Shown: positions 4,684-58,235 of the stretch, in pieces
Layout of the letters: each line of letters opens with the position of its first letter
How positions within the stretch are numbered: the stretch's first letter is position 1
Origin: Capitulum mitella
Lineage: Eukaryota; Arthropoda; Thecostraca; Pollicipedomorpha; Pollicipedidae
Reading direction: 5' to 3'
Assembly: GCA_030062745.1 (NCBI GenBank)
Contig: CP099840.1
Span: 10,221,033-10,285,032, forward strand
Length of the DNA stretch: 64,000 bases
Program-made: the position numbers and the translations under genes
The notes under the pieces: model-generated
The model's database searches: none
Told to the model about the DNA's origin: nothing
The model's input: only the letters and a program-made list of their open reading frames with translations

Positions 4684-5033
4684 TACCGGTGCGGAACTGA
4701 ACCGTCAGAATACTGGGCCGTCACGGCACTGGACCGTTACGGCACTGGACCTTCGTGGCACCGGACCGTCACGGCACTGGACCGTCACGGCACTGGACCG
4801 GTGCGGTACTGGACGGGTGCGGTGCTGGACCGGTGCGGTACCGGACCGTCACGGCACTGGGCCGGTGCGGTACTGGGCCGGTGCGGTACTGGGCCGGTGC
4901 GGTACTGGACCGGTGCGGTACTGGACCGTCACGGTACCGGACCGTCACGGCACTGGACCGGTGCGGTACTGGACCGTCACGGCACTGGACCGGTGCGGTA
5001 CTGGACGGGTGCGGTACTGGACCGGTGTGGTAC
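4684..5033. repeat. Minisatellite, 16 bp unit (about 21 copies)
   Basis: Two variant units alternate: CACTGGACCGTCACGG and TACTGGACCGGTGCGG. Because 16 is not a multiple of 3, all frames encode the same 16-residue periodic peptide and stay open by chance; no coding is implied. Confidence 0.93.
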
Positions 5034-5067
5034 TCACAGTTGACGGTAACCATGGTCCGCTTGCTGA

Positions 5068-5495
5068 CGGAAGGTGGACTGTAACGACAGACAGAGGCAG
5101 GCTGTAACGACAGACATAGGAGGACCGTAACGACAGACAGAGAACGGCTGTAACGATAGACAGAGGAGGACTGTGACAACAGACAGAGACCAACTGCAAC
5201 GACAGACAGAGGTGAACTGTAACGACGGACAAAGGTGGACTGTAACGATAGATGGAGACCGACTGTAGCGACAGACAGAGGAAGACTGACGACAGACAGA
5301 GACCAACCGTAACGACAGACAGAAGTGGACGGTAACGACAGACAGAGGTGGACTGTAAGGACACACAGAGACCGACTGTAACGACAGACAAAGGCAGACT
5401 GTGACGACAGACAGAGAGCGACTTAACGGCAAAAAGAGGCTAGCTGTAACGACAGACGAAGGCGGACGGTGACGACAGACGGAGGCCGGCAGAAA
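5068..5495. repeat. Minisatellite, 23 bp unit (about 18 copies)
   Basis: The core is CTGTAACGACAGACAGAGG followed by four variable bases. It begins about 35 bp after the unrelated 16 bp array and runs into the GC island at 5480-5690. There are no spacers between units, so this is not a CRISPR-like structure. Confidence 0.92.
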
Positions 5496-6064: not shown

Positions 6065-6152
6065 ATGCCGTTGTTGGCGATGCAAAGGTAGATGCCCATC
6101 TCGGAGCGAGTCACACGGTCCAGCTGGAGCACCTCTCCGGTAAATGTGGCGA
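6065..6152 (-). CDS. DIP-like exon: C-terminal half of Ig2 (88 bp)
   Basis: This short exon encodes 28 whole codons with two bases at each end. It reads ATFTGEVLQLDRVT, then RSEMGIYLCIANNG, which is the E-F-G region of DIP Ig2 with the second cysteine. The acceptor is strong (CTCTCTGCCGCAG, AG at 6153-6154). The donor is GGCAT followed by GTGAGT (GT at 6063-6064). The incoming phase (one base needed) matches the phase-1 end of exon 10221-10407 and creates Val. It ends after two bases of the codon following NG, the usual place before the PPSVSKR-type linker. The next exon was not found below 6065. Confidence 0.9.
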
Positions 6153-6660: not shown

Positions 6661-9600
6661 TGGCCAGTCCAATCAGCGGACGTCATCTAGAGGCTGGCCG
6701 GCCAGATGCTATCGCCGTCCGGCCGGCTTTCAATAAGAGCCGGCCGAATTTATCGCCCGATTCTTAAGCATCGCGGTGCCCGGCGGAGATTTTACATTTC
6801 AATGATTTTGTTGGCGGGCGCCACTTTCCCGAAGTGGGCATTGGCAGGTAAATGAAGTGGGCTTTCCGCGTCGGTGGCCAGCCGCCCTGACCCCGGCTGC
6901 CTGAGCTGAGACGCCGTCGGTGGCCGGTCGACCCGGCCCGGTCGTGCCCTGCCTGTGCCCGGGAAGCCTCTCAGCTCGGCCGCGCCGTGCTGGTGGCCTG
7001 CCGATTCGATTCCGTCGTGCCCTGCCGTCGCCGGCAGGCCTGGCCCAGTCCGCTGCCGCTGAGTTTTCCTCGCCGTCGCCGACCCCCCGTCTCCAGCCCG
7101 ACCGACGGCCGAACAGCGTGGCTCGCGCCGCAGATCTATTGCCGGCATTTGCATTTTCAAGATTTAAGCGATGTTAAACGTTGTGGAAAAAATAAACAAG
7201 TCAATAGCGCACGGCGGCGGTCGCCAGTGAAGGCGGACGCCCGGCTTCCGTCGGCCTGGTGTCGCCGGACGGTGACGAGCATGCAGAAGGCTTGCGCGGG
7301 ACGTCACAGTCCGCAGCCTGCCTGAGCGAGGACGGCCGGCCCGCTTTATGTTGTCACTGTAGAGCAAAAATGCAGGGGAAACTTAACATCCTGAATCGAG
7401 GCAGGAGTCGCCTTAATGAGCTGAGGAAACATCCTAAGGCGACAGAGGCTACGACTGTAACCTCTGTCAAAGAATAGCACTGAAATAATTATGTTCTACA
7501 TAAGTCGATTTACGTCCGACACCAAAACTTTCGCGACCTCTTTTTTAAATATAGACATCTTTAAGAACAGAACAGTTGACAACGTAACTCCCTCCATATT
7601 GTATTTTTCATCCAAATATCTGCAACAGCATTTATGTCTCTCCTCTACATGACGAATGCTTTTTTCAAAAGCCGACGAATCACAATACCTTAATCTAAGA
7701 CGTAATTAGTGCACAGGTAAATAAATAGGTAGATAGCCGTCTGAAAACATGTCTGTTCATGTATGAACGCAAATAGCTCGTCGGTAACTTTATAATAAAC
7801 TGTATCAGGTATGAACCTTTAAAAGATTTCCTGACTGGTATCTGACACAAAGCACTGTCTAACAGAATAGAATGTTCAAAGTCAGTGATCCTTGATATTT
7901 TTCTGGTTACTCAGAATCCAGAAAGCGACGTGAAAATGCGAACAATGTGCGGAGGGACGTATGTTTTTGTTGCCGCCCATTTATTACCGCGAAACGTGTG
8001 GCAGCGGCTGTATTTTTTCGTGCCGATAACAGCAGCATTTATCGGAAAAAACGCCTTCGTCTTCAAAGCAATAGGTGCGGCGTTTTCGTCTCTCAGGCAA
8101 GAAGCGCGCCGCACTCGTCGATACGGACTACCAGGCGCTGCCGGTGCCTAAGGCGGGGAGCGTGCCGCCGACGACGGCGACAGCTCTCTGCGATTTATCC
8201 CCGATGCCCGCCAGATACAAACTTTGCCACATGAATGATGCGGCTCGATTTGCATCTGTATGTGGCGCACCGACACCTGGCTGGCGGCTGATGAACAGCC
8301 CCGTCCTCCGGCTCGGTCTGACCCGCAAACAGCGGCCGACGACGGCGGCCCGCCTTCAGCGCCGGCCGCGGCCACCGTAGAAACGCGGCCACGGCACACC
8401 GGACGGCGACGAAGGCCTGTCCCTCCCTCCCGCAGCGGCTGCTGCCATCACAGGCACGCGACCACGGTACTGCCTGTACGGAGCTACACAGGGGGGAATG
8501 TGGACAGCAGAGCGTAAATGAATTGTGTGAGCAAAACGACAGAGTAGGGTGTGAACGGGATCGCGCATGAATGACGAGAGAAGATCCATTATATCAATAA
8601 TGTGGATGACATGGGAGACTGGCTGTGCGGGCAGTCTGACTGTGGAACAGACAGAGCGTGATAACAGCAAGGACAGCACGGTAGCTGGGTGTTTGGGAAG
8701 TATGATGGATTGAGGCTGACGGAGGAGTGACCGCCCTCGGCAGCTTGGTCCACTTTAGATGAGCCTAACTAGTTTGCCGACAAAATATTTACATTTGGGC
8801 AGCTCTGAGTGCGGTCCGCTGTTTTGCGACTCAGATTTTGCGCAGTCTGCAGAGGGCAACGACACGAGGCAAGACTGAGTTAAAGCCGTTGCAAATACAG
8901 CGCTGGTCGTTTGTTGGCTGCGGTGCAGAGCTCAAGCAGCACCGTGCAGCAGGCCAATCCGCCTCTGGGAGCCAGCGCTGGCGGCGTCCGGCTATCGGCC
9001 GCCTCCTCCGGCTCTGCGGCGGCCGGCGGCCGGGCCTGAGGACCAGACCGGTCCTCGGTGGCGCGCTACCGTCTCCGGCGCCGGCTCATGTTTTACGAGC
9101 CAGCACGTGATTGAATCGGGCCTGGGGCGCGACAGATTACCGCTGCGGCGACGCGGCCGCCGTCCGACACCCGTGCAAAGCCGGGCCGCCGAGCCACCCC
9201 CCGGCCCCAGCGTCGACGTTACGACCATATGAGATGGGCCCGGCCATGTGGAGCAGACATGAGCCTGTCCGAGCATAGCTGCATAACTGCGTGTCCGTCG
9301 CCGTTCACCGGCAGCGGGGAACGTTGGGTTCTTTTAGAAGTAGCATAGTGAGTGAGGTGACATATCATCCTGCGCAGCAGTCGTTGCCGCATCGATTTTA
9401 GCTTGCGTTTCGCAGTTCGCAAGCTGGGTCATGACGAAAGCCGACACAGGCTATCTAAAGAAACCGAAGATATATTTATTTGAAATAGTTTTAGATACGC
9501 TTTTCCTCTGTGGTCTTTTGTAACCTCATCGTGTTGAACGAGTAAAAGACAAGCAACTGCCTTCTGCAATCCAGTAACGCATTAAATGACCTGATCCTCA

Positions 9601-9989
9601 GCGTAACGTTTAAAACTGTCGTTTGATTATGAAAATATACCGGGTTTACTTCTGCTCGTAGCGAGACATTGTCTCAATGTTCTTTCATCTCTGATCTCAC
9701 AGTTCGCCGGACTTCGAAAAGTGGTTTTGAACTCAACAATCACTTGACTGGAATGATGGCTTGAAATGTACTAAATAACTTAGCGCCATTTAGTCATTTA
9801 ATGTGTATGGTATGGTAGGTGTGAGACTTTGCCAATCGAATATAAAAAGGCCACACACCTTCGAACAGAGACTTCAGCTGAAGAGGATAGAGTGCATTCA
9901 GGTCTGCTGTAGCGCTAGGGGACATTGTATTTGTGAGCTTGCGACCTCGTTGTAGCGTACGCTTCAGTTTGCTCTCCTATCTGAGGGTG

Positions 9990-10245
9990 GTAGCAGACCT
10001 CTGAGTCTGCTGCTCAGCCTAGGGCCAGTATGTGATTTTGAACTTGCCCCTGCTTGAGAACTAAAGCTTACCTTTGCGTCTGCGCTGTTGCATGTTGAAA
10101 ATAACGTACCATTGAGCTTGCGTCCCTGACTGAACACAGTGCGGTACCTTTGAGTCTGCGTCCCTGGATGAGGACAACATACCTTTGAGTTTGCGTCCTT
10201 GCATGAGGACAATAGCGTACCTTTGAGCTTGCGTCCCTGCTTAAG
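9990..10245 (-). repeat. Tandem repeat copying the exon-3 end and its GT donor (at least 5 donors)
   Basis: A 35-38 bp unit built around GGACGCAAGCTCAAAG-GTACGC repeats into the intron. Donor-like GTs are at 10219-10220, 10181-10182, 10146-10147, 10108-10109 and 10070-10071, each preceded by AAAG or AATG and followed by ACGC, ATGT, ACCG, ACGT or AAGC. Two more decayed units without a good donor lie near 10034 and 9995. Distances from the first donor are 38, 73, 111 and 149 bases, so only donor 4 keeps the phase of donor 1. The encoded motif QGRKLK recurs as QGRKLN before donor 4. Confidence 0.92.
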
Positions 10246-10407
10246 GACGATGTCCTGACCATCCTCACGCTGCCAGGTAATGGTCGGCGGCGGGTGGCCG
10301 TTAGCTTTGCACTGCAGCCGTGCTGAGCCACCCTCGGGAATAATGATGTCGCTGCTGGTCTCCGACATCTGAATATCGGGCGGCACCACCACCTCCAGCT
10401 GGCCCAC
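10221..10407 (-). CDS. DIP-like exon: N-terminal half of Ig2, with duplicated splice sites on both sides
   Basis: Encodes 62 residues plus one base. It begins VGQLEVVVPPDI, the family's Ig1-Ig2 linker, continues through PEGGSARLQCKANGHPPP with the first Ig2 cysteine, and ends TITWQREDGQDIVLKQG then RKLK. The acceptor is CCGACAG (AG at 10408-10409), phase 0 with the preceding exon. The donor is AAAG followed by GTACGC (GT at 10219-10220), giving phase 1, which matches the next exon at 6152. The first and last parts of this exon belong to tandem repeats that carry copies of each splice site into the flanking introns. I take the innermost pair as canonical because it gives a normal Ig2 length. 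Confidence 0.93.
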
Positions 10408-10632
10408 CTGTCGGACAGACATGCAGCCACTGCCGTCACATTGTCGGGTGGCATCACCACCTCCTGCTGGCCCACCTGTCGGACGGACACGAAACCAATG
10501 ACGCCACAGTAACAGTAACGGGCGGCACCACCACCTCCGGCTAGCCCACCTGTCGGACGGACACGAAACCAATGACGTCACAGTGTCGGGCGGCGCCACC
10601 ACCTTCGGCTGGCGTGCCTGCAGGATGGTCAC
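10408..10632 (-). repeat. Tandem repeat copying the exon-3 acceptor and exon start (4 copies in all)
   Basis: The block around the true acceptor at 10407 (ending CCGACAG, then GTGGGCCAG and a GAGGTGGTGGTGCCGCCC-like run) recurs upstream in the transcript. Exon-like starts fall at 10475, 10549 and 10617, at spacings of 68, 74 and 68 bp. Copies 2 and 3 keep CCGTCCGACAG followed by GTGGGC; copy 4 has CCTGCAG followed by GCACGCC. Relative to the canonical frame, copies 2 and 3 are shifted and copy 4 is in phase (+210 bases). No stop occurs between copy 4 and the exon in that frame. Confidence 0.93.
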
Positions 10633-11070
10633 GTGCTAGTGACGCCATGACATCAGACAAAAGCTGGTCGTCAAGGCAGCATAAACCGCCTGTATGGCTC
10701 TGAGGTCCCGGCAACCTGGCCCGCCTCCTGTGCTAGGATCCGCAGCGACCATGTGACGATGAATTACACACACGTCGTCTCGGCGGCGGCCAACCACCTT
10801 CCGAATCTCTGGTCTCCGTAAGCCAGGCCGTGCTGCTGAACCTGACGATTCACAGACGGCACTTTCACACAGGACGGGCACCTTTCCGCACGACACTGAT
10901 CTGCTTCCCTGGGGCCCTAGCTCCGGATAAGATGCACTCGGGCGGGCGCCGGTCCATTATCGGCCTGACACCTCCTGCTCGGTGCCGTAACGACTCCGAC
11001 CTGGGTCGTCCTGGGGCCGGCAGCACGTGTAAACGACGCCGGCACGGCGGCCTGCGAGATCGGCACTGAC
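10408..11070 (-). other. DIP intron 2 (663 bp)
   Basis: Runs from the donor at 11069-11070 to the acceptor at 10408-10409. The last ~225 bases of the intron (transcript sense) are made of the acceptor-copy repeat. The rest is GC-rich unique sequence with no other motif I recognise. Confidence 0.9.
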
Positions 11071-11256
11071 CTGGTACCTCATGGGGTCCGTGTTGACCTG
11101 ACACATGTAGGGGCCACTGTCCGACTGGCGCACGTTCCTCAGCGTCAGTGTCCACGTGTTGTGGTCGTTGTGAATCACCGACAGACGGTCAAAGTGAGTG
11201 ATCACCACGTCGTGAATGGCCAGGATGGCTTTACTATCTGCCTTTATCCAGGCCAC
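11071..11256 (-). CDS. DIP-like exon: C-terminal half of Ig1
   Basis: Encodes 62 residues, starting VAWIKADSKAILAIHD and ending NTDPMRYQ. It has the Ig1 C-strand tryptophan (VAW), the RLSVIHN and NTWTLTLRNV strands, and the second cysteine in DSGPYMCQVNTDP, which is diagnostic of the DIP/lachesin group. The acceptor is excellent (a pyrimidine tract ending CTTTCAG, AG at 11257-11258). The donor is CAG followed by GTCAGT (GT at 11069-11070). Both junctions are phase 0. Residues 11-16 (ILAIHD) belong to the family's Dpr-binding Ig1 face, which suggests a functional copy. Codon use is GC-rich at third positions, like the other exons. Confidence 0.96.
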
Positions 11257-13071
11257 CTGAAAGAAAAGGAGACGTTTAAAGCGTCTTATGTACTACTGTG
11301 AAGCAATCCTAGAACTTTAGGCGTTTCTCGAACGTTGCTGAATGTCGGGAATAGCAACATTCGTAGAAACAGTCAAGTCATATGAAGGATTCTCATGAAC
11401 TGGCTGATGGTATTGGGTGTGTGAAAGCACGGAGGTCTAGATTTGTATTTCAAGTGACCAAGCGACTGGATGTCTATGCTTGCGGACGGATCATGAGGAT
11501 AGGGCTTCAGCGTCCGAGAACTTCCTTTATGCGTCAGGATTGCGACAGTTTGACTGCAAATATTGCATTGGTCAGTTGCCGGGTAAAAGAAAATTTCGTG
11601 TGTCACGGAGTTGCTTAATGATGCTTAATAATTGTTGCAAGCTATCGGGAAACCTTTAAAAAAAAGAACAGAACGGAGCAGGTCTGCAGGACTATTTGGA
11701 TCCGAACGTCGTACCTGGAGAGAATCTGAAAAAGATCTGATGTGCCGCCAGGGTCGGCATACAGCTGTCCATAGGCCCAGTGCTCTAGATTAATACAGCT
11801 GGCTGTTTCTTTGCGAACGGTGCCTGCCACGCATCCGGTACATACAAGCGGACCTGTTACCTCGGAGCAGGCTGATGACTTGGCTACGTTTCAATGTCGG
11901 TGCGGAGGAAATCATGATGAAACTTAGAATTTCTACTCCTGGTTAGTCGCGTAACCCTCGTCGCACCGGCCTGCGATTCACCTTCGCCGGTCGGGGGAGG
12001 AGGTTCATGGGACCCCCAAAGATCTCCATGACTGTAAGTCTCACAGAAACATTTTACATACCATTGGAAAGCAATTATCTAAACTAGAAGACAACATCCA
12101 GATACAGTGCAATCAGGTCAATATTGAGGTAACCGGAGGTCATCTAAGGTCGAATCGCCTGCTGACATTTTTTAGCAGAAAACGATGATAATCAAGGCTT
12201 TTATTTAGACACTTATTTAGACTTTTATTTAGTGTATCCAAAAAGGTTAAGCATAACAAGAAGTCCTGATGTACCTGCTTTGGTGCAGTAAAAGAGCACT
12301 CGAGGTCAGATGTGACCATTTCACAAGAGATTGAAAGTAAAAAAATCGTCATTTTGTAACAGCAGGCAGCAGCGTTTTCCGCATTGCAAAAGGTAGGCAG
12401 TGCTCTGGCTAGATAATGACAAAAATGTCTGATATACGTATCAAGTCTGCAACTACTATATCAAGGTTTAACAGACCTTGCTTTAGTAGACCTTTAGGCC
12501 TTTAGACCAAGCTTTTGATTCAGTCGGGAGTTTCTGGTCTTTGTCGTGTCATCTGCCTTATTTCCGTTGATCATACACGATATGGCATAAAATCATACAT
12601 GTGTAACGGTATCACAAGTTGCCGATCGTCCCTCCCCGGCCGCGCGGCGCGCTCTGTCCACTCGGCGTTCGGAGGACACGGTGCTCCCAGACGGTGATTA
12701 GCTCGCGGGCCGCTGGGTGACCCGCGGCCCCGGCCCCTTCCGTCGGGGAACCTGGCTGGTGGCATACGACCGAATGACGTCTGACAAGACGTCCGGTTTG
12801 ACACAAGACTAGCCGGCTTCCGACTGCGACGCTAATGGTCAAACCTGACTGAAGCGTCAAAAAATAAGTCGGAAAACGAACAAATTTAGCTGGTAACTTT
12901 GATCCGATTCTGGTGTGTCGGTGGACGACGTGCGGCTGGCAATATACGCACGAAGATCACGACGCCTGTCAAGATTGCACATGTTATATCCGTTCTCCAT
13001 CACAAAACCCATCCCCAAAGCATTCTCTTCACATGAGTCACACCTACACCGGGCGACTGCAAACCTAATAT

Positions 13072-15856: not shown

Positions 15857-16095
15857 GGGGCTCTGTCTGTTGTTAGCCTGTGCGGTCTTTGTCTGTTGTT
15901 AGTCTATGCGGTCTCTGTCTGCTGTTTGTCTGTGTGGTCTTTGTCTGTTGTTGGTCATTGCGGCCTTTGCCTGCTGTTGGTCTGTGCGGTCTTTGTATGC
16001 CGTTGGTCTGAGTGGTCTTTGTCTGCCGATGGTCTGAGTGGTCTTTGTCTGCCAATGGTCTGAGTGGTCTTTGTCTGCTGTTGGTCTGCGAGGTC
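15857..16095. repeat. Minisatellite, 26 bp unit
   Basis: About nine imperfect copies built on GTGGTCTTTGTCTGCYGWTG followed by GTCTGA or similar. The period of 26 leaves several frames open; not coding. Confidence 0.88.
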
Positions 16096-20016: not shown

Positions 20017-21132
20017 TACGGCGAAGACGGCTTGAAATTGCCTGCCTCAACCATCTACAACAGTTAATATTCCGCCGACTTTAAATTCGTCTCTCCTGAT
20101 AAAAACGAACGAATGATTTTCATGTATACAGAGTCTAGACGTTTGACAACCCAATGGAAGTGCATTCCCCCCAACTAGTATTTGGCCATTGTTTTACCAA
20201 CAGTTTTCGATGCCTCCACGAAATGCAAAAATAATCGGTAGCCCTCCTGCCACAGTCGTTTGGTTTCAGCGTCGGTGCTGTTCGGAGCAGACAGGGCGGC
20301 TGGGTGCGGCCAGCCGTCCGGGCCGCCCGGCCCCCGTTCCCGGCGGCAGTCAGGCTCCGCACCTGGGATCTCCGCGGCGGCGGCCGGCTTCTGAGCAGGC
20401 CGCGGCACGCCGCTCTGCCGCGCCGCCGCCGTCGACGTTTAATGGTGCTAACCGAATTATATCGGGCCGTCATACTTTTGTAGCCGGGGTCTGGCCGCAC
20501 AAAGGCCGGTCGCCATCTGGCCCGCGTGCTCGCCGACGTAACGCAATTACCCTGCCGGGGGTGGACCCCCACCGTAGCGCCGGCGGCCCGACCGGCGTGC
20601 GGGGCAAGGACCGGGCACTGTTCGACCCACGCTGACTGACGGGGACCCGGCAGACGGTACTTTTCTGCCTACACTGAACATGAAGGGGAAAGGGAGGAGC
20701 GCCAGACGGTACTGTCCGTCCTATGCTGACCGGCGGGACCTAGGGGATGGCACTGTCCTCTCCATGTTGATCAGCAGGAGCCTCATGAACTCAATGAGAT
20801 CCCTTCACGAAAACCGTTTTACATGCTATCGATGCATCGAAAGGTTTCTCCTATTTTCCTCTAGCATCTTCCTTCAGGCCAGAAGCCCTGACCAACTCTA
20901 CCGAGCCCAGCGGCGGCGGCGCTGTCCGAGATTTGAGCCGGGTCGGCTGTCTGGGCGAGTCTGGGCCGGCCGGTCGGACGAGGCGGCCTTCTAATGACAC
21001 CACTCGGACAAACAGCGCCCGAGGCGGAGACCGCCGCCCCTATTGGCCGACCGTGTTGTTTGAAGAGCTGCTGTTTGGACAGCTCGGGCAACTTTCAATC
21101 TCCGGTATCGGCGGCCGATCACAGCGGGCCGG

Positions 21133-21412
21133 CTGCCCTCTGCCCGGCTCTCACGGCGGCACGGCACCAGCCGGGGACCGGGACCCGAGCTGCCCTCTGC
21201 CCGGCTCTCACGGCGGCAAGGCACCAGCCGGGGACCGGAACCCGAGCTGTCCTCTGCCCGGCTCTCACGGCGGCACGGCACCAGCCGGGGACCGGGACCG
21301 GGACCTGCCCTCTGCCCGGCTCTCACGGCGGCACGGCACCAGCCGGGGACCGGGACCCGAGCTGCCCTCTGCCCGGCTCTCACGGTGGCACGGCACCAGC
21401 TGGGGGACCGGC
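21133..21412. repeat. Minisatellite, 57 bp unit, 5 copies
   Basis: Units start near 21133, 21190, 21247, 21304 and 21362, with only a few substitutions. As 57 is a multiple of 3, each frame repeats a 19-residue motif (for example CPLPGSHGGTAPAGDRDPS) and frames on both strands are open. Homogeneity suggests recent expansion. Confidence 0.93.
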
Positions 21413-32736: not shown

Positions 32737-34529
32737 GGGAGATAGAATTCCGAAGCCCAACATTCGATCCACACGAGCTGTGTGCGCGATCTCTCAGGCT
32801 TGTCATTGGAAGTTACATCACAGCTGTGGGGAGAACTTAAATGTAGCTTTTAAGACTAAGATTTAATGTAATAAGTGTAAGAAAAACTTGAGTTTACACA
32901 AAAATTGGCGACCCCGAGTGCATTCGCATCTTCACAAAAAGTTAATATTACGTTTAAGGCGCTGCATGGCGAAAAGGATAAAAGAGATGTTTGCATCCCA
33001 CTGATTTGGAAAAAAGTTCCGTTAATCGCAATTTAGGCTGCTGCGTATATTCTGATTTGATGGCTAGCTATCCTTTGCATCATTTCCCTTTTTGGGGCGT
33101 ATAGAAGGTGGGCCGACGAGAATCGTGTTATGCTTTGCTAAGCTTCGTTCTGTGCTGAATAAGACCACTGTAAGTGCGTTATAACTAAGGAAACAAACGA
33201 CCTCCTCTGTGCCGAGAGAAACTTGGGTTTTCACAAAAAAGATGTGTATCAGAAATATACAAATGAGGTTGCACGCATTCAGAAGCATGCCTAAGGCCCA
33301 GGAGCCGATAACCGTTTCTTTATTTTATCAAATAATTGAAGTAATACTTTACCGTCCTTTGGAGTGAAGACGACCCTTTGAAAATGAAGAATGGGCGATC
33401 CTCAGAAGAAGTGATTGAAACTAAAAAGGCATTTTAAGGCTATGATTGGATTACGCCGGATTCGGACCCGCATACCAGCCAATCCTTCGAGATCTCGAGG
33501 CTCGTTTCACATGTGATTTGTTTCCGGTGTAGCAAAACAAACAGTGGCGCGATACAACAGGTGCCCGGAGATCACCTGGGATGCTTAGTCAATGCCGTCC
33601 ATGGAACAATGGGTCGGGACCACCTTTAGGGACGCCATCTCTGTGCGTTCCAAGCCCTATGAAACTCGATAAACCATCAAATCGTAAAACACTGTTGTCC
33701 TAATGAAGTCATGATGACATTGCGTTGAATGGCCTCAATGTTTTTTTTACCAAAATGCTCACAATTAGTGCACCTAGGGCCACCGATAGCTCTGACGCCG
33801 GTGCGTCGTTTGATTACGGAATAATCCGACAGACAACAGGCGGGCGTCCGAGGCGTTCCCCTTCCCCATGGAGAAGCGGACGAGCAAATTTCAGGTACCT
33901 TGCGAGTACGAGAGGCTTCAGCTTCAGCTTAAAACAGCATGCCAGTGATGGAACTATACGATTTTATCTGTTTTGCAATCTGTGCGGACATGCAACAGTA
34001 ATGAATGGCGATGGTGCACATAAAAGACGGAAATCATACAACTCTCACCTGAGCAAAGAAGAACGAAGCCCGTGAAACTGTAAGCTTGAAACCTTCCCAT
34101 GGTTCACACCTGAAAGCAAACAATCACGGTAAGAATTGCATGTTTTAATGTCAAGGAACACATATCGGTCGTCCTTCTCTGATGAAAGTAACCATCCTCC
34201 GCAAAGTTCACACCGACTATTCACATTACGTCCCGCATAACGCTAGCACGTCTGGCTTGCTGGACCTAACGATGAGTCGAAACACATTGTAATTATTGGC
34301 AGGATTTGCAAGACGCCTATCATAAGCCCGCTCCTAAGCCATAGGGGGCGTCGCTATGATGATATGACCCCACGTATCAGCCGCAACCGCCAGCATTATC
34401 ATTTTTAAGGCCAACTTCAGTTCCATCATTTCTGTGGCTCTAATTTCGCCCGTCCGGCCATTTTAATCCGTCCGTTCCCAGTGGAAATATTCCCAAAGTA
34501 AAGCGAAATGAAAAGTAATGAAAATACCC

Positions 34530-43120: not shown

Positions 43121-44819
43121 CCACTCCTGGGCAGAGCCGCGGCACATTACCCTCGCACCGAAGCCACTGCTAAGCAATGACGGATTTGTGGAGGAAAGAG
43201 GCGCGTTGCATGGCATGGCTCGGGCAAGAACTGATCACTTGGTGCCGACAGCGTGTCGGTGCAATACCGTCTCTGGCTCTGGTGAGCGGAGAGAGTGCTC
43301 GCTGGTCGGAGGCAGCCTCCACTCTGTGTCGGATTCAGCCGTCAGTGTGCCCTCCTGGCAGCGGCAGGCCATTATTTTGCATACCTGAAGGATGCAGCGT
43401 TTACTCCTCGATAATTGGATTCCGACTAGGACCCAATATCCCGGCCCGGCGAAGGAAACTGTTGAAAATGCAGAGCTGGCTACCCCGTCCGCAAGTAATG
43501 AGCTTGGAACGTCCCGAGACGGTACGGCTCTTTTTCGGTAAAACGGAGGTGCTGTGAGGAGACCGCGTAGAGAACATTTGCCAGAAGCATTTTCTGACCC
43601 TAACGTCGCCCCGAACCAAACTGACCTGGAACTAGCACAGTGACTGGTGTGAGTGGGTGCGTCGGGTTGACATTTTCAGCCATCGGGTAGCATGAGTAGC
43701 GTATGTGATTTCGTATCGCTGAGTAAACCTGCCCATGATTTTATTCCTGATATTTTATCGATATTTTGACGATGGTATGTACATTATGACATTTTTATTC
43801 CGACAGGAGTAAGCCAAAGGGCCCTGCAGATTCCAGTTATGAACACGAGCTCTTTGATTTCACTCACAAAGAACTGGATTCAAATTTGCAGATCCTTTTC
43901 GTTGGCTGCAAAGCGGGAAGATCAGCCGGCAGGTTAAGAACAGACAAAAATAGGTCCGGAAATAAAAATGTTAACTCATACGTGTTTTAATTCAGTGCAT
44001 ATTACCAACGGAAATCTCCAAACTGTAGTGTATTGTGTACCAGTAGCCTCAACAGCTTCAATTTTATTCTGCTCTTCGAAAAAAATACTGGGAGGGACAG
44101 TTTCCCATTCCCCGCCTACCATGGCCATGGTTTAGAGAATACAACAAAGAGTAAATGGGGTAATGATACCTTAGATTTTGCTTGAATTGATGCTACCACC
44201 CCTAAACCTAGCATTTTTTCCTTTCAATGAACAGGTATCATCATCAGCACCATAATATTCCTTTGGCAGGTTATTTGCGTTTTAGTTGTGCAACACAGAT
44301 CCGATGTTAATCACGTAATTGGAATGTTGAGCATCATATGGTTTCCTTCAAGCCACAATTTACAAAATTCGCACTTCTCACACAGGCCAAAGAGAACCAT
44401 GGGCGCCTGTTTTGATAGCACATTCTAAGAGTGCCACGCTTTCATCGATATCTAAATGCCAGCGGAGGGACCTGCGGTGGCGGTTGGGGAGGAAATGCGG
44501 AGAGGCAGTGAGATCTAATTCGATACTGTTGATCAGATAACAGAACCAATCAGAGCAGGTCCGGCAGACTACAATCAGGTCTCCTCGTCCCCGTACCAAT
44601 CAATGCCGCAAACGCGACGAATCGATGCACAGCGCCAGTTTCGCTACGCCTTGGTCGTGGATGCGGTGCGTTGGGGCCCGCGGGATTACTGGGCGGCTTT
44701 TGAGGCCTGGTTTTTACACGTGCGGAATTCCAGAGCGCGCGAGGCCCGACTGACAAGGCTTGGCCCGAGTCGATGAAATAGACACCGTCAGAAAACAAAA
44801 CGCATCAGCTGAGTGCATC

Positions 44820-57960: not shown

Positions 57961-58235
57961 CGAGACGGATGAGTCCGAGAGGACAACAGGACAGGGCCTG
58001 GGACCGGGAGGACAACAAGACGGTTCTGGGACCGGGAGGACAACAGGACGGGGTTTGGGACCGGGAGGACAACAGGACGGGGTCTGGGACCGGGAGGACA
58101 ACAGGATAGGGTCTGGGACCGGGAGGACAACAGGACAGGGTCTGGGACCGGGAGGACAACAGGACGGGGTCTGGGACCGGGAGGACAACAGGACGGCGTC
58201 TGGGACCGGGAGGACAACAGGTCAAGAGTGTTAGG
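57960..58235. repeat. Minisatellite, 29 bp unit, about 9 copies
   Basis: Units of GGGACCGGGAGGACAACAGG followed by ACGGGGTCT or a variant. A period of 29 keeps all frames open and repeats the same 29-residue peptide, so the long apparent frames on both strands are not genes. Confidence 0.93.

Follow-up and report, generated by a model that had tools for sequence, protein, structure and literature searches.

Unrelated tandem arrays span both splice boundaries of one immunoglobulin exon in a predicted DIP-like gene of Capitulum mitella

Introduction

Tandem repeats that lie across exon–intron boundaries have been described in lancelets, where they are called mirages, and in human duplicated genes, as variable repeats (PMC3087553, PMC3902484, PMC2812944; here and below, statements on this literature follow excerpts of the cited papers). 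Here we describe two such arrays, one at each end of a single 187-base exon, in a 64,000-nucleotide stretch of the genome of Capitulum mitella (assembly GCA_030062745.1, contig CP099840.1, positions 10,221,033 to 10,285,032), which we call the window and from whose first letter all our positions are counted. The exon, exon C, lies on the minus strand in a gene that appears to encode a relative of the fly Dpr-interacting proteins (DIPs), immunoglobulin (Ig) proteins of the neuronal-recognition type.

Mirages were named in amphioxus Adh3 as tandem repeats over exon–intron boundaries; in amphioxus they occur at both types of boundary, and many, not all, of their copies hold the AG or GT signal (PMC3087553). 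The mirage of the globin gene BflGb6 covers the 3' end of an intron and the 5' part of exon 2, that of BflGb9 lies at the 3' boundary of exon 2, and mirage copy number differs between two haplotypes (PMC3087553). In lancelet PGBD5, imperfect boundary repeats of 60 and 108 bp are found at two different exons (PMC3902484); units measure 10–72 bp in Adh3 and 150–160 bp in the globins (PMC3087553, PMC3902484). The authors' reverse-transcription PCR, together with the Adh3 data, suggests that mirages do not interfere with regular splicing (PMC3087553), and no aberrant mRNAs are said to arise from the mirages of Adh and troponin C (PMC3902484). Human segmental duplications contain gene-modifying variable internal tandem repeats that average four copies of 30-bp units, and 27 intron modifications among these repeats lie at exon–intron boundaries, where they are able to alter splicing (PMC2812944). 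In the Rogers model, introns are gained by tandem duplication of a segment containing AGGT (PMC4974935, PMC2891723). An earlier note on the window, made from its letters alone, had called repeat expansion at a splice site unusual; with amphioxus Adh3, troponin C and the globins and lancelet PGBD5 on record, it is less so (PMC3087553, PMC3902484).

Results

Two arrays at the ends of exon C

Exon C occupies 10407-10221, and the array at its acceptor side covers 10376-10613 on the minus strand, where Tandem Repeats Finder (TRF) called a 68-bp unit in 3.4 copies with a score of 317. We chose the units of both arrays by motif search. On the acceptor side this gave four copies of 68–74 bp, with first exon bases at 10407 (A1), 10475 (A2), 10549 (A3) and 10617 (A4, just past the TRF limit), spaced by 68, 74 and 68 bp. 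AG is present in all four, and BLAST with one unit recovered the remaining three, as far as 10647-10586. The copies diverge by about 7–40% and contain indels; their mean identity within the array is 0.79 for A1, 0.80 for A2 and 0.81 for A3, and is lowest for A4.

The donor-side array covers 10048-10248 on the same strand, with units of 35–38 bp. TRF called it as a 38-bp repeat of 5.4 copies (score 148), and a second call within it had a 73-bp unit (10103-10239, score 181). Five copies carry GT, with last exon bases at 10221 (D1), 10183 (D2), 10148 (D3), 10110 (D4) and 10072 (D5) and spacings of 38, 35, 38 and 38 bp. Beyond them, at 9931-10047, motif search found the decayed remains of three donor-like units, whose junctions fall at 10036 (no GT), 9999 (a weak GT) and 9931 (no GT), so that the array has no sharp outer end and fades away. 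Donor copies diverge by 15–40% or more, again with indels, and mean identity declines outward from D1, the most central copy (0.78, 0.73, 0.69, 0.69 and 0.63 for D1 to D5).

Neither array is matched by shuffled sequence: the best TRF score in 100 dinucleotide shuffles of 9401-11400 was 55. Local alignment of an acceptor unit with a donor unit scored 7.0 against a mean of 8.9 for shuffled sequences, 447 of 500 of which scored at least as high, and on this alignment the acceptor unit is unrelated to the donor unit. Each unit combines exon-derived and intron-derived sequence across its own boundary, and each array reaches into only about 30 of the 187 bases of exon C. When two acceptor and two donor units were used as BLAST queries at E values up to 1, copies were confined to the arrays apart from a single 16-base stretch at 44181 that matched a donor unit (E 0.64). 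The earlier note had claimed an acceptor copied four times and a donor copied at least five times, in unrelated units of 68–74 and 35–38 bp that each straddle a boundary of the exon, and these counts, spacings and comparisons bear it out.

We asked how surprising it is to find two arrays at one exon. The five exons that we found in this gene have ten ends, of which only the two of exon C fall in a TRF array; the other eight do not. Intervals of 187 bases with their ends in two different arrays number 157 of 63,813 in the window, the locus itself included, and with five exons to choose from, chance co-location is only mildly surprising. The window is rich in minisatellites, with arrays at 4685-5048, 5077-5488, 15864-16095, 21132-21411 and 57975-58221 whose units measure 16–57 bp and reach up to 20 copies, and the genome may be prone to minisatellite expansion. 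None of these arrays overlaps any of the other four exons of the gene. A long open frame runs through the locus (10635-9964); we rejected it as a single large exon, as other arrays in the window also hold long open frames (for example, 217 amino acids at 4769-5422) and the array copies are mutually out of register. We also chose nine further open frames by eye (eight of 55 in one list and one of 258 in another); none gave a Pfam match over the cut-off, and two had weak matches (E 0.057 and 0.031). Searches of the window for tRNAs and, at gathering scores, for Rfam families found none.

The host gene

The minus-strand gene has at least five exons in the window, whose phases agree and which together form a single 206-codon open reading frame. 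They include a signal-peptide exon at 34109-34049 (ATG at 34100; MGRFQAYSFTGFVLLCS), which joins in phase to exon A at 24123-24017, where Ig1 starts. The second half of Ig1 lies in exon B (11256-11071; Pfam ig, E 1e-05) and the first half of Ig2 in exon C (Pfam Ig_3, E 5.9e-10), with an intron of 663 bases between them (11070-10408); the second half of Ig2 follows in exon D at 6152-6065. Phases fit at exons A, B and D as well as between exon C and both of its neighbours. Joining the signal-peptide exon to exon A gives the gene a span of at least 28 kb, and acceptor-like sequence just before the signal-peptide exon suggests more 5' untranslated exons upstream.

When A1 and D1 are used, the best sequence match of the product in the PDB is fly DIP-alpha (phmmer E 2.3e-73), which aligns throughout; of 187 aligned columns, 106 are identical and two are gaps. 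The five top matches are all fly DIPs (alpha, CG32791, eta, gamma and theta; E 2e-73 to 5e-54); the stretch of CG32791 that aligns to the window protein matches DIP-alpha. Matches outside the family were far weaker (Robo2, 1e-34; the vertebrate IgLON neurotrimin, 5e-29). By similarity, therefore, this is a DIP-like Ig gene of the neuronal-recognition type. DIPs have three Ig domains plus membrane or glycosylphosphatidylinositol attachment; of such a protein the window covers the stretch from the signal peptide through Ig1 to most of Ig2. For the part that follows exon D, a tblastn search gave no match below E 1 in the window, and the remainder of the gene may lie beyond the window's edge. The earlier note had placed exon C in a neuronal recognition gene as an Ig exon, between neighbours at 11071-11256 and 6065-6152, and the domain match, the DIP similarity and the phases agree with it on each point. 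The sole gap in the DIP-alpha alignment, of two residues, sits a few residues before the exon C/D junction (10221, 6152) and adjoins the exon-derived part of the donor unit; it may mark a loop that tolerates change.

What the copied sites would encode

Four acceptors and five donors give 20 combinations, most of which would damage the message. Eleven run into a stop within the exons tested: all five that use A3 do so at the third codon past the junction, and both A1–D2 and A1–D5 stop in exon D. A further four stay open yet misread exon D, and A2–D3 restores the frame of exon D with exon C misread. Only the four that pair A1 or A4 with D1 or D4 preserve the frame of both exons; A4 would insert 210 bases, or 70 residues, between Ig1 and Ig2, and D4 would insert 111 bases, or 37 residues, inside Ig2. 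Compared with A1, the exon-derived 30 bases of the three outer acceptor copies show one synonymous and nine other codon changes, one of which, in A3, is a stop. We rejected a coding role for these outer copies on the strength of that pattern, mostly amino-acid changes plus a stop.

Strength and conservation of the copied sites

Splice sites were scored with weight tables, and all scores and ranks given here and below depend on the tables used. Donors scored 7.18 (D5), 5.85 (D2), 3.84 (D1), 3.23 (D4) and -0.04 (D3); acceptors scored 4.75 (A2 and A3), 2.85 (A1) and -1.50 (A4). We compared mismatches to the inner copy within the splice site and beside it. In the donor copies, 7 of 36 letters differ in the nine-base splice zone and 13 of 68 on the adjoining exon side; in the acceptor copies the counts are 7 of 45 and 11 of 87. 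By these counts, the splice-site letters of neither array show extra conservation over neighbouring copied letters.

A1, A2 and A3 all read CAG/GTGGGC, which as a donor scores 4.24, above 99.1% of GTs. In a combined AG/GT scan of the strand, A3, A2 and A1 rank 4, 5 and 9 of 258 AGGT sites. The top-ranked site, at 34048, serves the signal-peptide exon as its ordinary donor and was rejected as a recursive splice site for that reason; the scan is thus not specific. With a view to RNA structure that might conceal the outer sites, the region 9990-10660 was folded; it gave a z score of -1.94, and none of 20 shuffles folded at least as well.

Discussion

A double mirage is the explanation we prefer, with a probability of about 0.72: two independent, minisatellite-like boundary duplications, of which A1 and D1 make the normal message and the outer copies are decaying by-products. 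A short segment across each boundary of exon C, one at the 3' splice site and one at the 5', would have been duplicated in tandem, and this would have been tolerated because an intact splice site always remains next to the coding exon. The arrays would then have lengthened outward into the introns by slippage or unequal exchange. The innermost A1 and D1 would go on yielding the normal message, and the outer copies may cause some mis-splicing that is cleared by nonsense-mediated decay. D1 as the most central copy, the drop in identity outward from it and A4 as an outlier fit growth outward from an inner copy under constraint, with decay at the array's edge. Also in favour are the through-alignment of the A1–D1 product with DIP-alpha, the 11 combinations that run into a stop, the mostly non-synonymous codon changes of the outer acceptor copies, splice-site letters no better conserved than their neighbours, eight other exon ends free of TRF arrays, and the reports that amphioxus mirages leave regular splicing undisturbed (PMC3087553, PMC3902484). 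The sequence shows the arrays, their independence, the gene with its phases and the harm that most other site combinations would do; we infer how the arrays grew, that A1 and D1 are used and that the outer copies have no role. Most likely the normal message is unaffected by the arrays, but some copies appear strong enough for use.

Several observations weigh against this reading. A1 is not the most central acceptor copy, D2 and D5 outscore D1, and A2 and A3 outscore A1. D5 (10071-10072, minus strand) has the top score among 3,900 GTs on the minus strand, and an outer donor reached its strength in only 5–7% of simulated neutral trials. At least three of the four outer donors scored 3.2 or more with a frequency of 0.06–0.20 under simulated neutral change, and of 0.01–0.21 in a second simulation over assumed divergences of 30 to 15%. 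Since the data were inspected several times, such frequencies fall short of establishing selection. Over six codons the outer donor copies show three synonymous and five other changes relative to D1, a count too small to judge. Their exon sides are also more alike than their intron sides (0.74 against 0.56 in a gapped comparison, with 0.47 for shuffled sequences). Column permutation gave p values of 0.001–0.007 for this contrast, and rotation gave ranks of 3 to 8 of 38, in both cases with the length gap of D2 placed at its end; the gapped comparison shrinks the contrast without abolishing it. The exon-derived half of these copies is thus better kept than the intron-derived half, though selection is expected on neither there. 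Plain decay does not predict such likeness; re-seeding from D1 would, because the exon side of D1 is held by its coding role.

The main rival to a double mirage is a brake on expression, in which strong outer donors, and outer acceptors, take a set share of transcripts into early stops and nonsense-mediated decay, so that array length tunes the amount of receptor. Use of D2, D5 or A3 would indeed lower expression, given the stops reached through them in A1–D2, in A1–D5 and at once in all five A3 combinations, and D2 and D5 are the donors that outscore D1, with D5 the best on the strand. That ranking depends on the weight tables used, the splice-site letters lack extra conservation, and amphioxus mirages are reported to yield no aberrant mRNAs (PMC3087553, PMC3902484), all of which makes the brake unlikely, if still the strongest competitor. 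Productive isoforms, with 70 residues added between Ig1 and Ig2 by A4 or 37 inside Ig2 by D4, are improbable: the frame is kept and open in all three combinations of A4 and D4 with A1, D1 or one another, but A4 is a poor acceptor (-1.50), D4 (3.23) scores below D1, D2 and D5, and the inserts are out-of-register repeat sequence that in the case of D4 would land within the Ig2 fold. The earlier note had suggested splice noise, an isoform switch or a buffer of redundant sites. A switch or buffer role is not supported, as the splice-site letters are no better conserved than their neighbours and only four of 20 combinations keep both frames; some splice noise is likely.

The outer acceptors might alternatively serve as dual AG/GT sites for stepwise correction, each regenerated GT being re-spliced to the next AG and 68- or 74-base units being removed down to A1. 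The shared CAG/GTGGGC of A1 to A3, with its donor score of 4.24, and the ranks of 4, 5 and 9 in the AG/GT scan speak for this; the scan is unspecific, with an ordinary donor at its top, A4 has no GT, coding accounts for the GTG GGC at the start of exon C, and ratchet points are known mainly from long introns (PMC8605326) against 663 bases here. We regard stepwise correction as slightly less probable still than productive isoforms. Equally doubtful is a combination in which the copy number of the two arrays together tunes a neuronal recognition receptor, acceptor errors being buffered by the stepwise removal of 68–74 bases while outer donors divert a set share to decay; were it true, receptor level would be set by array length and could vary between individuals. 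Least probable of all is an assembly artefact over DNA that is single-copy at each boundary. The draft assembly of one amphioxus mirage was reported as aberrant (PMC3087553), but assembly stutter gives near-identical copies, and those at exon C differ by about 7–40% on the acceptor side and by 15–40% or more on the donor side, with indels, a divergence despite which copy number could still be misjudged. Overall, a double mirage that is silent or mildly noisy is most likely, and there is a real possibility that some transcripts are diverted by the strong outer donors.

Minisatellites that span splice boundaries offer natural experiments, both on the spliceosome's choice between nearly equal neighbouring sites and on the origin of new introns or isoforms. 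Exon C would place a double test of site competition within one transcript, in which the strong outer donors sharpen the question of which site is used. Its two arrays, in a DIP-like gene, would also carry the known range of mirages into a further group of animals.

Like amphioxus mirages, the units at exon C span a splice boundary with exon- plus intron-derived sequence, and many, not all, copies keep their signals (AG in four of four; GT in D1 to D5 and, in weak form, at 9999, but no longer at 10036 or 9931). As in amphioxus, where copies at the outer edge escape homogenisation (PMC3087553), mean identity is lowest for A4 in the acceptor array and for D5 in the donor array. The copies are more diverged than those of BflGb6, which are 81–100% identical (PMC3087553). 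Unlike amphioxus mirages, the arrays at exon C are unrelated and occupy both ends of one exon, and their gene resembles a fly DIP. Human IFI6 (6-16, G1P3) is reportedly an interferon-induced transcript in which a minisatellite supplies multiple splice donors (title cited in PMC2572611). That minisatellite is said to lie on the donor side only, in 12-bp units, with some repeated donors used in RNA, whereas the arrays of exon C stand at both ends. The human variable repeats are defined by variation among paralogues with RNA support; exon C is a single locus read from DNA.

As in the Rogers model, both junctions of exon C contain AGGT that has been tandemly duplicated, and the 68- and 74-base acceptor units run from GT to AG; unlike in that model, the duplications sit at the margins of introns already present, with no new intron apparent. 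The intron between exons B and C is also short beside those that hold most known ratchet points (PMC8605326). The excerpts of open-licence literature that we searched contained neither an exon with unrelated arrays at both ends nor a DIP-like case. The arrays of exon C thus belong to a known kind of structure, the mirage, and their unusual feature is that they occupy both ends of a single exon.
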